Shown: positions 771-60,260 of the stretch, piece by piece | Layout of the letters: each line of letters starts with the position of its first letter | Position numbering within the stretch: the first letter of the stretch is position 1 | Assembly: GCA_015060925.1 (NCBI GenBank) | Contig: SUXM01000004.1 | Span: 1 to 64,000, forward strand | Length of the DNA stretch: 64,000 nt | Direction: 5' to 3' | Source of the DNA: Parabacteroides distasonis | GTDB lineage: Bacteria > Bacteroidota > Bacteroidia > Bacteroidales > Tannerellaceae | Program-made: the position numbers and the translations under genes | Notes under the pieces: model-generated | The model's database searches: none | Seen by the model: only the letters and a program-made list of their open reading frames with translations | What the model was told of the DNA's origin: nothing

Positions 771-832
771 GTTCCATGCCGATGAAACTTTTTTCTCATC
801 AGTATGAGAATTTTTTCTCATGGGCATGAAAA
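771..832. repeat. Triple palindrome element, copy 1 (GAAAC/ATGAGA type)
   Basis: Three 18-nt imperfect inverted repeats start at 771 (GTTCCATGCCGATGAAAC), 793 (TTCTCATCAGTATGAGAA) and 815 (TTCTCATGGGCATGAAAA); centres are 22 and 22 nt apart. The element lies directly beyond the lpdA terminator in the direction of lpdA transcription. Less regular palindromes continue to the left (TGTCAAAATGACA at 694-706). Confidence 0.7.
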
Positions 833-14054: not shown

Positions 14055-14318
14055 TTAACAACTTGTATCTAAATAAATATTCATACTTGTACAGCCATTT
14101 GCATGTAAAGCCGCAACGCAATCATCATAACGAGTCTGGCAACACCAAATATGACAAGCACCACCTCCTCCATATTCAATATTAGCTAAAGCTTCTACAT
14201 TTTCCAATGTCAAATCAGACAAATCCACTTCATTTCTACTTTGATACACATTCCAGCCAGCTGTTAAAGCCATCATGATGACACTCAATGCTACACCTAT
14301 TCTTTTCTTTGTTTTCAT
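14055..14318 (-). CDS. NVEALA family small secreted peptide
   Basis: 87 residues. N-terminal signal-like segment MKTKKRIGVALSVIMMALTAG, then DLSDLTLENVEALANIE, which contains the family-defining NVEALA motif, then GGGG and a cysteine-rich tail with six Cys (CHIWCCQ, DDCVAAL, GCTSMN, terminal C). NVEALA proteins (Pfam-type family limited to Bacteroidota) often sit beside propeller lipoproteins, as here. The tail after GGGG looks like a mature disulfide-rich peptide; the LxxxNVEALA part resembles a leader. Role unknown; a signalling or toxic peptide is only speculation. Own promoter box at 14385. Confidence 0.85.
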   Translation of the reverse strand: MKTKKRIGVALSVIMMALTAGWNVYQSRNEVDLSDLTLENVEALANIEYGGGGACHIWCCQTRYDDCVAALHANGCTSMNIYLDTSC

Positions 14319-14460: not shown

Positions 14461-14520
14461 ATTACCTCGGACTTAAGTTGGGATTACCTCGGATGTATTT
14501 TCAATTACATCCGAGGTAAT
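14461..14520. repeat. Triple palindrome element, copy 3 (ATTACCTC type)
   Basis: Three 17-nt units at 14461 (ATTACCTCGGACTTAAG), 14483 (ATTACCTCGGATGTATT) and 14504 (ATTACATCCGAGGTAAT); centres 22 and 21 nt apart. Lies directly beyond the hairpin at the end of the serine protease gene. The same unit family and spacing recur at 45687. Confidence 0.8.
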
Positions 14521-14569
14521 TTTATCTCCCTGCCCAGAGAAAAAAATTTTCATAGGCAGGAAGATAAAA
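14520..14569 (-). terminator. Gene-end hairpin of the T9SS serine protease gene
   Basis: TTTTATCTCCCTGCC / GGCAGGAAGATAAAA, 15-bp stem with one mismatch around a 20-nt AT-rich loop; 40 nt after the stop. No T run follows on the minus strand, so it may block exonucleases rather than terminate. Confidence 0.6.
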
Positions 14570-14608
14570 TTTCCCTATCTAAAGGATGTTATGAAGTATG
14601 ATAGATTG

Positions 14609-17407
14609 TTATCTATTTTTGATTCCTTTGATGATTTGTACCCCTTGATCCGTATGAAGACGGAAGAAATAGAGTCCGGCAGGGAATGAATCGGTATAGA
14701 TAATGGATTCCGGATGTTTTTTATGTACCATCTGTTTTCCTTCGGCAGAAATAATCTCCAATAGGTTTACCTTTTCATGTCCGTTGATATGTATCTGCTG
14801 GTTGAATGAGATAGGATGGATGGATACTTCTAAAAGAGGTATCTTTTCGTTATCCACACCTATTTCTGTACTGGCTTCACTCTTCGGACTTTCGTTGTCT
14901 TTGTATAGGGTAGAGACCTTGTACGAGATAGGGGTGGCAGGTATCTGCTTATCGGTATATTCAGTTATGGACGGTTGGGAAATCTCACCTATCTTTTGTT
15001 CGTTACGATAGATATTATAACCGGTTATTTCCGGAAATGCGCTTGTCTGCAAAGAACGGATTGATGGATTTGCACTTTCTTCTGTTCTCATCTCCGCACT
15101 TCGTATCTGTGCATTTGAACGGGTTAATAGGAGAGGAGCATAGGCTGTTCCAACGGCTTTTGTTTTTATCAATTCTCCCTCTTCAGAAGTGATGACAGCT
15201 GCAAGCAAGAAATTAAAATCATTTGTTGGGGGTTCATAATAATATTCCCAGTTCTTGCCATCGATAGAAACCAAGTTCCCTTTTCCATTGATAGCAGGTC
15301 CTTCATCGGCAACAGCCGGATAGACACCCTCTTTGGTAGGAATAGCATGGAAAGCCACGATTAAATCCTTGGAGGCGTCGATGGTAAAAGGTTGTTCTAA
15401 TTCAATGGTGTTAATATCTTTATAGATTAACTTTTGAAGCTTTTGCGTGTACTCCCGATCTCCTTGTTTGATAAGTAAAGAGTAGGTTGATCCCTCTATC
15501 GGAAGGAAAAGAACCGAACGGATTAAGTTTTGGTGCAAAGGTTGCAAATCAGCCGGTTCCCATCTCTGCCCGAAATAGAAATTTCTATTGAAGCTAAGCA
15601 TTTGATAGGCTGAACCTGTTCCCCAATAAACCATTTGTTCGAAAACAGGAGCTTTCCAACGAACCGTTACTTCCTGTCCGTTTGCTTTTGCTGTTACTTC
15701 CGTTGGAGGTTTAAGTTCGTACACATAAATAGACTTGTTAGTTGTAGGCGATTCTTTGTCGCCGGCATAAATAGCCGATACGCCATAGAGCTGAGTACCT
15801 GTTTCCGGTTCCCGGTCTGAATAAGAGGTAACCGTACTATAATCAATGAATGTATTGTTTCTGTACACTGCGTATTTAACCGGTTTTTCTTCCGAATCGG
15901 GAGCTTTCCAGGTCAGTTGTACCTCTTTATTCTTGTAGGTTAAAGAGAGGTCTGTTGGAGCTTCTTTAGGAGCAGAGGCATAACGGCCTGCAAGTTGAGT
16001 AACCCCGCTTTTGATAGGATCTAAGTATATATCCATACGGCCGGTATCAGCCTTGCTGTATTGATCCCAATGATAATACAATTTACCATAGTAATTGCTT
16101 CCTTCCGGATATTCACAAGAAGAACTACCTCCGCTGAGTGTTCCTACGATTAGTTTCTTTTGGTTGAACAGAGGAGAACCGGATGAACCGCCTTCGGTTA
16201 CGCTGTGTCCGTTTGCTGTCGAGTTGAATATCACGTTCCAATGGGCTTTTGATGCACCAAAGGTTTTATCGCTAAACCAAGTATAGGAAGTCGCAGCTCG
16301 CTTAAAAGTAGAAATCTTCATGTAATCACCGGATGGGTGATGGATTCCTACGCCGGAAGTGGCAGGCGTGTTGCTTCTGTCCCAACCATTGTAATAGACA
16401 TTATAACTTTCCGGTATGGAGTCATTTAAAAGCAGCAGCAAACCATCTGAACCTCCGTCTAAAGGTGTATGAGCTATTTTTTTGCAACCGACCATCGTCT
16501 TGTAAGAGGCAGCAGCTGAACTGTTCTCACATCCTGTTTGTTCAAAATGAAAATAAAAGACAGATTTGTTCAGATCTTTTTGAGTGACAGTCGTACTATC
16601 TATGTCGATACAATGATAGGCCGACAAGACGTATGGTTTCAGGTCTTCCGCCGTATTGTTTACAACTGAACCTGAACAGTAATAGATATATTTATTGATG
16701 GTAAAGGTAATCAAGCAGATGCCGTTTTTTTCGGTTTGCCAAGCATCACCCTCTTCGCAGTTGATATTTACCATGCAAGAACCTGAACTGCCGGGACCGA
16801 TTCCCTCTTTGGTTGGGCTTACGGAAAGATGGTTATAGCCGTAACCAATCCTGTCTATCGATAGGCGAGGTTGTTGGTTTGCTCGACCATTTGTTTCATA
16901 TTCGAGAATAATGTCATCACCGGCAATAAACTCTGTGGCATACTCCAAAGTGGAAGGATTTGTTTGATGGGTGAAAGCACCTATCAGATGGGTTCTCTCT
17001 GCATTGTAAATAAAGAGTTTTCCCTCTTCCGGGATGTAAAACTCTTTAAAGCTGACCATTAAAGCGATGGCTCCTTTGGCTTGGATCCTGAGTTGCCATA
17101 TCTTTTGTCCGTTCGGTAAGCTACTCCAATGGCCGGCATTATCGATGGAGAGATCGGTATCGATAAATGTTCCAACCTTTAAAGGTGCTCCTTGGCTGAC
17201 TTGCCATTCATCAACCATTTTCAAGTCTTCAACACTGAAGTCTATGGGTATTTGCCGGATAGGCAGACTGCTTTTCAACCGATTGGTATATTGAAAAGAG
17301 GAGGGGATACCTCCTTCGCTGATTTGCGCGGACAGGGATGCCGGATAGATTATTCCTATCATAAATAGGAACATACTTATAAGTAAAAACAGATTGTTTT
17401 TATTCAT
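14609..17407 (-). CDS. T9SS-exported trypsin-like (Lys-C type) serine endopeptidase
   Basis: 932 residues from the chosen ATG. Signal peptide (FLFMIGIIYPASLSAQ), N-terminal prodomain, then an S1-type protease domain with His265 (VLSAYHC), Asp321 (GGSDGLLLLL) and Ser409 (GGSSGSPLF), as in lysyl endopeptidases; several Cys pairs fit secretion. From about residue 480 come fibronectin-III-like modules (PTDLSLTYKNKEVQLTWKAP; a second TEVTAKANGQEVTVRWKAP) flanking a cleaved-adhesin-like jelly-roll. The last about 75 residues are a type A T9SS sorting domain (EVSIHPISFNQQIHI ... PAGLYFFRLHTD). The longer ATG at 17440 lies within the -7 box and is rejected. Secreted or surface-anchored protein digestion is expected. 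Confidence 0.88.
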   Translation of the reverse strand: MNKNNLFLLISMFLFMIGIIYPASLSAQISEGGIPSSFQYTNRLKSSLPIRQIPIDFSVEDLKMVDEWQVSQGAPLKVGTFIDTDLSIDNAGHWSSLPNGQKIWQLRIQAKGAIALMVSFKEFYIPEEGKLFIYNAERTHLIGAFTHQTNPSTLEYATEFIAGDDIILEYETNGRANQQPRLSIDRIGYGYNHLSVSPTKEGIGPGSSGSCMVNINCEEGDAWQTEKNGICLITFTINKYIYYCSGSVVNNTAEDLKPYVLSAYHCIDIDSTTVTQKDLNKSVFYFHFEQTGCENSSAAASYKTMVGCKKIAHTPLDGGSDGLLLLLNDSIPESYNVYYNGWDRSNTPATSGVGIHHPSGDYMKISTFKRAATSYTWFSDKTFGASKAHWNVIFNSTANGHSVTEGGSSGSPLFNQKKLIVGTLSGGSSSCEYPEGSNYYGKLYYHWDQYSKADTGRMDIYLDPIKSGVTQLAGRYASAPKEAPTDLSLTYKNKEVQLTWKAPDSEEKPVKYAVYRNNTFIDYSTVTSYSDREPETGTQLYGVSAIYAGDKESPTTNKSIYVYELKPPTEVTAKANGQEVTVRWKAPVFEQMVYWGTGSAYQMLSFNRNFYFGQRWEPADLQPLHQNLIRSVLFLPIEGSTYSLLIKQGDREYTQKLQKLIYKDINTIELEQPFTIDASKDLIVAFHAIPTKEGVYPAVADEGPAINGKGNLVSIDGKNWEYYYEPPTNDFNFLLAAVITSEEGELIKTKAVGTAYAPLLLTRSNAQIRSAEMRTEESANPSIRSLQTSAFPEITGYNIYRNEQKIGEISQPSITEYTDKQIPATPISYKVSTLYKDNESPKSEASTEIGVDNEKIPLLEVSIHPISFNQQIHINGHEKVNLLEIISAEGKQMVHKKHPESIIYTDSFPAGLYFFRLHTDQGVQIIKGIKNR

Positions 17408-17437
17408 CGAATAACGTACTTTATGATTGATATGTTG

Positions 17438-17466
17438 CAAATATACATATATTTAGTAAGTAACAA
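17438..17466 (-). promoter_or_regulatory. Promoter of the T9SS serine protease gene
   Basis: TTG (17464-17466), 18 nt, TATATTTG (17438-17445). It covers the upstream in-frame ATG, fixing the start at 17407. Confidence 0.68.
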
Positions 17467-32113: not shown

Positions 32114-32173
32114 GTTTCATAGGATGAAACTCGAAGTTTCAGGTGTGAAACCAAAAGTTTCTACCTATGAAAC
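32114..32173. repeat. Triple palindrome element, copy 2 (GTTTC/GAAAC type)
   Basis: Three imperfect palindromes: 32114-32130 (GTTTCATAGGATGAAAC), 32136-32151 (GTTTCAGGTGTGAAAC), 32157-32173 (GTTTCTACCTATGAAAC). Centres are 21.5 and 21.5 nt apart. Lies 24 nt beyond the helicase terminator hairpin and upstream of the C69 gene. Confidence 0.82.
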
Positions 32174-45686: not shown

Positions 45687-45746
45687 ATTACCTCGGAGGT
45701 AATCAGAAATAAGTCCGATGTAATTCCCAATTACCTCCGAGGTAAT
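45687..45746. repeat. Triple palindrome element, copy 4 (ATTACCTC type)
   Basis: Three 17-nt units: 45687 (ATTACCTCGGAGGTAAT), 45708 (AATAAGTCCGATGTAAT), 45730 (ATTACCTCCGAGGTAAT); centres 21 and 22 nt apart. Lies between the PiT terminator and the DUF937 gene end (stop at 45750), so between converging genes. Same family as the 14461 element. Confidence 0.82.
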
Positions 45747-59500: not shown

Positions 59501-60204
59501 AAGGTTTGTTGATGTGGATGAGTCATCCTTGTTGGCCTTCTATGGTATGGCAGACATACGATTATTATTTTGAGCCGACTGCAGGTTATTTTGCGATTAA
59601 AAAAGCATCTGAACCTTTACATATTCAATGGAATCCAGTAACTGATGAGGTAGAGGTGGTTAATTACAGTGCTGGAGCACAAGAGGGATTGGTGGCTAAA
59701 GTACAAGTTTTAAATATGAATGCTTCGGTCGCTTGGGAAGAAGAGGTTACTTTGGATAGCCATGAAGATACAACAAATAAATGTATACAATTAGAATTTC
59801 CGGATAGTTTGTCAAAAGTCCATTTTATTAAAATGACATTGACAAAAGAGGGGAAACTTCTTTCTGAGAATTTCTATCATCGTAGTAAAGAAGAAAATAA
59901 TTATCAAGAATTACGTCAGTTACCAAGGATTTCATTGCAATCAGATGTGAAAGTAAAGAAGGAGAAGGATGGTCAATGGTTGGCTACGGTTACATTACAA
60001 AATAAGACCTCTGTTCCAGCTTTGAATATTCGTTTGAATGTGGTAGGAGAGCAGGATGGTTTACAATTCTTACCTATTTTCTATTCAGATAATTATTTCT
60101 CATTATTACCCGGAGAAGAAAAATTGATTACTATTTGTTGGAAAGATGAAGATACAAGAGGTAATAAACCTAAAGTTCTTATCTCTGGATATAATGTAGA
60201 CTAA
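56560..60204 (+). CDS. Discoidin-containing GH2 glycoside hydrolase lipoprotein
   Basis: 1214 residues. Long basic n-region, then lipoprotein box SLLVLIGCQDK. Residues about 70-390 hold two F5/8 type C (discoidin-like) carbohydrate-binding modules (NVALQRVAIASSSYDYNM; VYVDLGTRSELDKIVLYWI). From 400 on the GH2 sugar-binding, Ig-like and TIM-barrel domains follow: WVVATVPGTILSSYKNVG, IWNDVYLTTTGD, NGRRFIGRGGNWGFSES and IMRNWVGMIGDEELYEACD. Acid/base Glu in YCGRNEGFPP; nucleophile probably Glu in FHSERGMPNVM. This resembles exo-beta-glucosaminidase/mannosidase-type GH2 enzymes; linkage not determinable. Surface or periplasmic glycan degradation; no SusC/D genes adjoin. Start could be a later Met (56584). 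Confidence 0.87.
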   Translation: MRYLICLCMRKRYKSRRRTYIYCRFIMSLLVLIGCQDKGKVSFDCSDVYTRGIGQYPGNPKEDFSPSLVPDHSTYRNVALQRVAIASSSYDYNMVAQLVTDGIISNKESLYYLEVITPEGNLPRREREWMIDQGRHSRNILYGEDSYFQIKLVNYQKLVDEISIKGNLIYDDKVANDGFQIICQGSNDGNNWVNIGELSGKGLPGKVASSRVKVTDPNKQTKETNMPVRQLNEKISFNKDVNYSCYRVLFKMKGALEWLLKEVGFYYKDKWQEVKPAQYFGSAWFSETAGEEWVYVDLGTRSELDKIVLYWINKAIEGQIQLSDDAKEWKEVALLPGGDALVEDILLKGKPRARYVRVLMQKSADGNPYILSEMKVMGKGGLIAQPAVSPNISANEIRLSGGNWKLQRASEITASGEEISTLSYNPKNWVVATVPGTILSSYKNVGAIVDPNYADNQLHISESFFNSNFWYRDEFDIPNGFKKEQVFLNFDGINWKAKIFLNGKYVGRMEGAFIRGKFNVTDLIVQGKNVVAIEIIKNDNPGAIKEKNKQSTDFNGGVLGADNPTFHATIGWDWIPTVRGRNRGIWNDVYLTTTGDVTIIDPFVRSVLPLPDTTSAILTAEVMVKNNGLKDIKGILEGKIGTVSFQQPVELKANEIKTVVFDVNDYPQMKIDNPRLWWPKGYGEPYLYSANFTFKIDNKVSDFLDYKVGIRQMTFNEDNQVLSMFVNGRRFIGRGGNWGFSESNLNYRGREYDIAVAYHADMNFTIMRNWVGMIGDEELYEACDRHGIMIWQDFWLANPTDGPDPYNPSMFISNAEDYVRRIRKHPSIALYCGRNEGFPPKEIDQALRHIVKEEHPDIHYISSSADDVVSGHGPYRMLPAKEYFTLEIGNDKFHSERGMPNVMTYESMLRTFSPDEIWPQGDQWGMHDYTREGAQGCTSFNEIITKGYGEPKNAKEFAELAQWVNYDGHRSMFESRSKNRKGLLMWMSHPCWPSMVWQTYDYYFEPTAGYFAIKKASEPLHIQWNPVTDEVEVVNYSAGAQEGLVAKVQVLNMNASVAWEEEVTLDSHEDTTNKCIQLEFPDSLSKVHFIKMTLTKEGKLLSENFYHRSKEENNYQELRQLPRISLQSDVKVKKEKDGQWLATVTLQNKTSVPALNIRLNVVGEQDGLQFLPIFYSDNYFSLLPGEEKLITICWKDEDTRGNKPKVLISGYNVD

Positions 60205-60260
60205 TACATAACAAAAACTGTCCCAATTTTTCATTTTGGGACAGTTTTTGTTATGTATTA
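60202..60260. terminator. 25-bp bidirectional terminator including the GH2 stop codon
   Basis: Stem arms 60202-60226 and 60236-60260 pair perfectly over 25 bp (TAATACATAAC... / ...GTTATGTATTA) with a 9-nt loop. The first TAA is the stop codon. 7 nt before the stop of the convergent Na/Pi gene. Confidence 0.88.

Follow-up and report, generated by a model that had tools for sequence, protein, structure and literature searches.

Near-invariant spacing in intergenic arrays of imperfect palindromes from Parabacteroides distasonis: candidate phased docking sites

What kind of element occupies positions 14461–14520 of the 64,000-nt stretch of Parabacteroides distasonis DNA analysed here (the window), and how is it related to other elements of the same geometry built from unrelated units? 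Hairpins and transposase relics are the usual explanations for palindromes between genes. Here, the spacing between palindromes is stricter than their sequence, even across unit families within one array, which opens to test the long-standing question of whether such repeats act via phased protein binding on double-stranded DNA or via hairpins.

The mosaic array at 14461 and other arrays of the window

The element contains three 17-nt ATTANNTCSGANNTAAT units on the plus strand, which we assign to family A: ATTACCTCGGACTTAAG (14461–14477, centre 14469), ATTACCTCGGATGTATT (14483–14499, centre 14491) and ATTACATCCGAGGTAAT (14504–14520, centre 14512). Re-reading of the sequence confirmed the three phased units and the 22/21 spacing given in a preliminary description of this DNA. 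On one side lies a gene for an 87-residue NVEALA peptide (14055–14318, minus strand), and on the other a gene with a rhamnogalacturonan-lyase domain (14609–17440, minus strand), the end of which is 88 bp from the element. The same description had placed a gene-end hairpin beside the element, but the long inverted repeat at 14521–14575 consists of two more palindromes, of family E, in the same register: a unit core CCCTGCCCAGAG at 14528–14539 (centre 14533.5), 21.5 bp past the third A unit, and a degenerate core with two mismatches at 14550–14561 (centre 14555.5), a further 22 bp on, which falls below the one-mismatch limit of the five-family chaining described below (compare loci L153 and L166). 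The locus is a five-unit mosaic in the order A, A, A, E, degenerate E.

Other arrays were also located in the window. The family B element at 771–832 (plus strand, TTCTCAT-N4-ATGAGAA) had been likened to the one at 14461; the three units and the unrelated sequence stand, whereas its spacing is 22/22 rather than 22/21 and its first unit is degenerate. A second family A element (45687–45746, minus strand, 60 bp, 21/22) lies in a convergent gap, and a family D element at 32114–32173 is exactly 60 bp long, with centres at 32122, 32143.5 and 32165 and the layout GTTTC-N7-GAAAC, GTTTC-N6-GAAAC, GTTTC-N7-GAAAC. When the window was scanned for triplets of strongly self-complementary centres, whatever their sequence, neither the 14461 nor the 771 array was flagged, because their units are imperfect palindromes, and Rfam gave no match at its gathering score in the window and eight loci.

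Spacing within and between unit families

The source genome is a 2.54-Mb metagenome-assembled genome (MAG) of 41 contigs, 88% complete. With up to two mismatches allowed, the family A unit matches it 72 times on the forward and 64 times on the reverse strand, while the unit read backwards matches neither strand; the matches are not due to chance. A model of sequence alone, derived from 14 elements, gave 165 matches in the same genome and 76 in G029, a genome of the same genus (both strands, E ≤ 0.05). Family A loci were stretches drawn from these two match lists together with three sampled contigs. Within the fetched stretches, a finder that accepted any spacing between 17 and 27 returned 77 distinct elements, spaced (22,21) in 34 cases, (21,22) in 34 and (21,21) in six; the remaining three have a spacing of 17 or 27 and one unrecognisable outer unit. 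None is spaced 22/22, and the finder returned nothing on backwards-read sequence. The length is exactly 60 bp in 68 of the 77, and since 22/21 reads as 21/22 on the other strand, the element has a direction, its two linkers being 5 and 4 nt long. In all 68 oriented elements the unit 1 core T7 C8 G10 A11 is invariant, at positions that the finder scores while tolerating mismatches. The consensus unit is a 5-7-5 palindrome, from which the arms of individual units often deviate. A's stand directly to the left and T's directly to the right of oriented elements; beyond these few bases no flank is common to all 68, although subsets share flanks, and no conserved flanking GTAG or CGTC tetranucleotide was found among them.

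Four further unit families, B to E, share this geometry. Family B runs at 22-nt steps; the consensus D unit also has the 5-7-5 form, which families B and E lack. With a pattern that allowed 57–64 bp and up to three substitutions, family D elements of the source genome proved to be exactly 60 bp in 15 of 15 cases; 16 stretches were scanned and all but L277 yielded elements, so that a fixed 60-bp length is common to two unrelated families.

Units of the five families were then chained over the fetched loci of the source genome, any centre distance from 15 to 30 being accepted, which gave 101 chains against a single one, at 29.5, in the backwards control. Neighbouring A units lie 21 (75 pairs) or 22 (60 pairs) apart in 135 of 135 pairs, B units 22 (15 of 15), E units 22 (8 of 8) and D units 21.5 (28 of 31, the others at 20, 21 and 22); C units show distances of 21 and 22. 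Junctions between families keep the register, at 21.5 bp for both A–E (8/8) and B–D (3/3). These eleven junctions are not all independent, four of the A–E cases (14461, C5, C11 and C40) being copies of one A+E compound, and the list of families depends on geometry, as families were defined from the arrays seen here, though between-family distances were unused in defining them. One array on C13 has six units, in order three of D, a D/A hybrid and two of A, at steps of 21.5, 21.5, 20, 22 and 21. The view that these are several subfamilies of one element type with near-invariant spacing is supported: instead of a scatter lacking a peak at 21–22, the distances concentrate there within families and hold between them.

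Among 59 relatives searched, the exact double unit was found only in G029, a second species, which keeps the A+E element at the corresponding gene end (identity is 81% in the element and 80% in the gene, with about 60 extra bases between them), there spaced 21/21. Of 27 G029 elements examined, nine are spaced 21/21 and 16 are 21/22 or 22/21, and in two the third unit is displaced or unrecognisable. Seventeen have a flank-matched partner among the 77 elements of the source genome, ten of them on both flanks; in these ten pairs spacing is identical in six and 1 bp off in one gap in four. The A+E compound itself recurs at four places in the source genome, 90–98% identical and with sharp edges, and between the 14461 and C5 copies the shared sequence extends into about 90 bp of left flank (98% over 207 bp). 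Because of the flank-matched partners and the recurring compound, we conclude that many elements are older than the split from G029 and that some were copied.

In other genus members the units differ in sequence and the spacing stays at 21–23. Stricter scans, with AT-rich matches set aside, gave three arrays each in G014 and G019, two of those in G019 at 23/23; family D arrays of G060 are spaced 21/21 in all six fetched, which were chosen from pattern matches; and G020 and G026 carry TTAAGTCCGAC arrays with a period of 22–23 (about eight units, counted by eye, in L234). The family D double unit has at least five matches in ten of 38 genus genomes, the source included, and at most two in each of 79 other genomes of the order (15 in total, against 13 in the backwards control). 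No arrays were found by the stricter scans in 60 kb of G006 (one chance-like pair), 16.7 kb of G022 or 40 kb of G035, and 40 kb of G040 gave two chance-like matches only. A looser scan for geometry alone, with one shuffle per sequence, was too noisy for use: it counted 108 pairs against 54 shuffled in the source sample, with no clear 21–22 peak, 49 against 17 in G014, 43 against 12 in G019, 69 against 17 in thirteen other genus samples, and 15 against 17 in G035/G040. For this reason we base the claim for other genus members on the stricter scans and the patterns.

Five family A elements (L165, L175, L177, L178 and L025) have a common left flank of about 100–226 bp, part of a longer genomic repeat; four of them lie about 190–480 bp from a contig end, and for L025 the distance is about 950 bp. 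At L187, L030 and L016, A elements are next to or close to a different repeat, some 400 bp in length, that contains a long palindrome (AAAATGACC...GGTCATTTT). One flank of L081 (G029:C351) resembles L195 and the other L165 of the source genome, near opposite ends of contig C30; a large-scale rearrangement here is inseparable from MAG misassembly or paralogy. Long TTAAGTCCGACA arrays of period 22–23 at about 11500–11690 of L234 (G020) and at G026:C7:24150–24248 share the AAGTCCGA half-site with family A.

Placement, pairing between units and alternative explanations

The preliminary description had raised, as one option, different binding proteins with a common mode, which, judged from sequence, is a good candidate explanation. 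A near-rigid spacing across unrelated sequences is best explained by phasing at the DNA level. We weighed a tentative proposal, to which we give somewhat less than even weight, namely that the elements are helically phased arrays at which dimeric DNA-binding proteins dock, and that copying has spread them. Its main rival is that they are non-coding hairpin repeats of the REP/BIME kind, kept or spread via single-stranded DNA or RNA hairpins, the spacing being inherited from unit copying; we consider this a possible explanation, at perhaps a third of our confidence.

After elements with shared flanks had been dropped, 61 of the 68 oriented elements remained. Their mean folding energy over the whole element is lower than that of unit-swapped controls (z −4.5 and −5.6 on the two strands, 30 swaps), so that units of the same element co-fold better than exchanged ones, and against mononucleotide shuffles 57 of the 61 show more stable folding, with z below −2. 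In 26 of the 61, one pair of units makes 15 or more of 17 pairs, against 17.1 (s.d. 3.1) expected. A long hairpin between units 2 and 3 is predicted at 14461 (−27.4 kcal/mol over a 71-nt stretch, z −5.8). Two of seven orthologous alignments that span an element also hold pairing through two-sided change: L147/L163, where two mutually pairing half-sites show CC against AG, and L150/L182, with one base changed on each side. The many intergenic copies and the recurrent A+E compound would likewise suit hairpin repeats. Against them, the best-pairing units differ between elements (1–2 in 24, 1–3 in 22 and 2–3 in 15 of the 61, ties given to the first); units 2 and 3 fall slightly under chance in their matching (z −2.4), where units 1 and 3 match clearly (4.1) and 1 and 2 weakly (2.3); other orthologue pairs change without restored pairing, as in L079/L007, with a mismatch left in each of the two species; and the spacing holds across unrelated families. 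G–U wobble, considered as a sign of transcribed RNA, was the same as in the unit-swapped null.

Within units the picture is different. The compensatory change inside each palindrome that had been envisaged did not appear: over all 68 oriented elements, left and right arms match no better than arms of different elements (z −1.1, −1.6 and −1.7), so that arm-to-arm covariation is rejected, and in the middle unit equal half-sites occur less often than chance predicts (z −3.6, 61 elements). Adjacent bases are coupled. At half-site positions 5–6 (12–13 reversed), the 408 half-sites carry CA in 158 cases, CC in 113, AG in 45, GG in 38, TG in 19 and CG in 15, where 83 CG would be expected if the two positions were independent, and the half type is tied to the central base (GG with G in 34 of 37, AG with C in 29 of 39). 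Recognition of half-sites would be expected to leave such coupling without covariation between arms, as seen.

The phased reading draws on the near-invariant spacing, the 60-bp length, the invariant core and the conservation of spacing in G029. The matching between units (z −4.5 and −5.6; units 1–3, z 4.1) is unpredicted by double-strand binding alone; about 77 copies in all kinds of gap, convergent ones included, would be unusual for the sites of a regulator; and rigid phasing is at odds with the 20-bp step in C13, the 21/21 spacing of nine of 27 G029 elements, the two 23/23 arrays of G019 and the 22–23 period of G020. On balance, the pairing results argue against pure double-strand binding and for hairpins or hairpin-templated copying of units. 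The inter-unit matching is best explained by copying or hairpins, either of which is compatible with DNA-level phasing.

That the elements are bidirectional transcription terminators or protectors of mRNA 3′ ends seems improbable from their placement. With ORF calls counted from 90 aa upwards, all but one of the 77 family A elements lie outside them. The 69 with both neighbours called comprise 33 in codirectional, 20 in divergent and 16 in convergent gaps (seven are unclassified), where placing elements at random in gaps no shorter than 60 bp of a 457-kb sample predicts 59%, 29% and 12%; the calls are mechanical and miss small genes, such as the NVEALA gene beside 14461, which was overlooked in this count. 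Stable predicted hairpins, the flanking A's and T's, the excess in convergent gaps, the position of 21 of the 33 codirectional elements nearer the upstream gene's end, and the location of 14461 just past the end of a gene would all suit terminators. However, the 20 elements in divergent gaps have no gene end beside them and match the random share, and orientation in codirectional gaps is with transcription in ten cases, against it in 18 and undirected in five. The elements are intergenic and are not confined to gene ends. Elsewhere in the window, a perfect 25-bp inverted repeat between convergent genes (60202–60260) is likely to be a bidirectional terminator.

Finally, arrays of core-like sites for a tyrosine recombinase of the promoter-invertase type are very improbable: consensus A and D units share the 5-7-5 design of Bacteroidales invertase repeats, the 95% identity of L068 and L194 over 700 bp of left flank stops inside an A element (in the unit 2 core, by eye) and one unit of the orthologues L154/L170 is, by eye, its own reverse complement, but known-type sites are mostly single inverted pairs 254–345 bp apart (G016, G017 and G001; one pair is 2.9 kb apart and some sites are unpaired) rather than 21.5-bp arrays, the exact P. 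distasonis motif, the only one sought, has no match in the source genome, and families B and E lack the 5-7-5 form.

A candidate docking platform and its relation to known systems

Based on these observations, we return to phased docking as the preferred reading. Each imperfect palindrome of 16–18 bp would be one putative docking site on double-stranded DNA, and sites 21–22 bp apart, about two helix turns, would align three, and up to six, dimers on one face, where they could touch. Differences between unit families would mean that they are read by related proteins, or by one scaffold with differing recognition; we propose that the spacing is kept across family junctions because it is set by protein–protein geometry, and we infer that the phasing is under selection. 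The likely use would be as an intergenic platform for docking, of a chromosomal or regulatory kind. Copying would affect units as well as whole elements, which would be corrected against each other, probably via hairpins during replication. The arrays point to a shared, putative scaffold at the DNA level. A more specific form, in which modular, interchangeable palindromic sites each have a dedicated reader within a protein family with a common oligomer interface, so that unrelated sites could be joined in one two-turn register, would be a phased DNA scaffold not described before, and we rate it as possible though unlikely. No paper among those listed in searches of the openly licensed literature describes such arrays. 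Should such a protein family be found, a major gut genus would have a new system for regulation or for chromosome organisation.

ArgR offers a precedent for the geometry only. According to the available part of PMC6640053, it binds two 18-bp semi-palindromes (ARG boxes) with 3 bp between them; these adjacent imperfect palindromes, whose centres are about 21 bp apart, are bound by one multimer. As far as that text goes, such sites have one sequence and lie at particular promoters, whereas the arrays here comprise about 77 copies of one family and unrelated families besides.

REP/BIME elements with their RAYT (TnpA-REP) transposase are likewise many-copy, intergenic and palindromic, and in the excerpt of PMC3733652 they are short and in some cases clustered, with trimers mentioned; they differ from the present arrays in that the latter hold a 21–22-bp register, between unrelated unit families as well. 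The Y1/RAYT domain (PF01797) has no match in the source genome, in which a gene could be missed at 88% completeness, or in G029 or the single-contig G014, both of which carry arrays, and a classical REP system with RAYT is thereby unsupported; eight of 38 genus genomes, G019 included, do have a match. The missing GTAG/CGTC tag is not decisive, because PMC6006769, in the section that treats the Bacteroidetes TnpA subclass 2.6, reports that the REPs of that subclass are atypical and lack GT[AG]G.

A MITE would have terminal inverted repeats with target-site duplication; in the elements here the ends are inverted (ATTAC...GTAAT) and the edges of the A+E compound are sharp, with no duplication evident by eye. 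Porphyromonas gingivalis belongs to the same bacterial order as the source organism. Its BrickBuilt minisatellite/MITE is intergenic, with a 23-nt period and predicted stem-loops, and is made of direct repeats in 1 to 22.8 copies, most with a leader and/or tail (PMC4596501, in the portion available). In contrast, the arrays here have inverted half-sites, usually three palindromes in 60 bp, and no common leader or tail.

Promoter-invertase repeats of Bacteroidales, as set out in part of PMC12118408, are 17-bp units with 5-bp arms and a 7-nt core (TAC-N7-GTA); the P. distasonis repeat given there, GCTACTYRGNRAGTAGC, shares GTTAC-GTAAC with the arrays here. Those repeats, on the same partial source, are distant pairs flanking a promoter, in contrast to units 21–22 bp apart in phased arrays. 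In G016, two sites of the P. distasonis type stand in tandem, 27 bp apart (G016:C1:4423345 and 4423372), beside the usual distant inverted partner.

Genes for PDDEXK_2 proteins (Rpn-type nuclease/transposase) adjoin A elements at L068:12365–13279, at L194:554–1444 and at the right end of L025. Arrays of a genome's own kind lie beside few of the 30 such genes scanned, among 34 matches listed in four genomes, and we treat the link as a lead only. An A-like element of G029 (L252:1084–1144), with the core GGGA/TCCC in place of TCSGA, lies upstream of a PDDEXK_2 gene and may represent a further subfamily.
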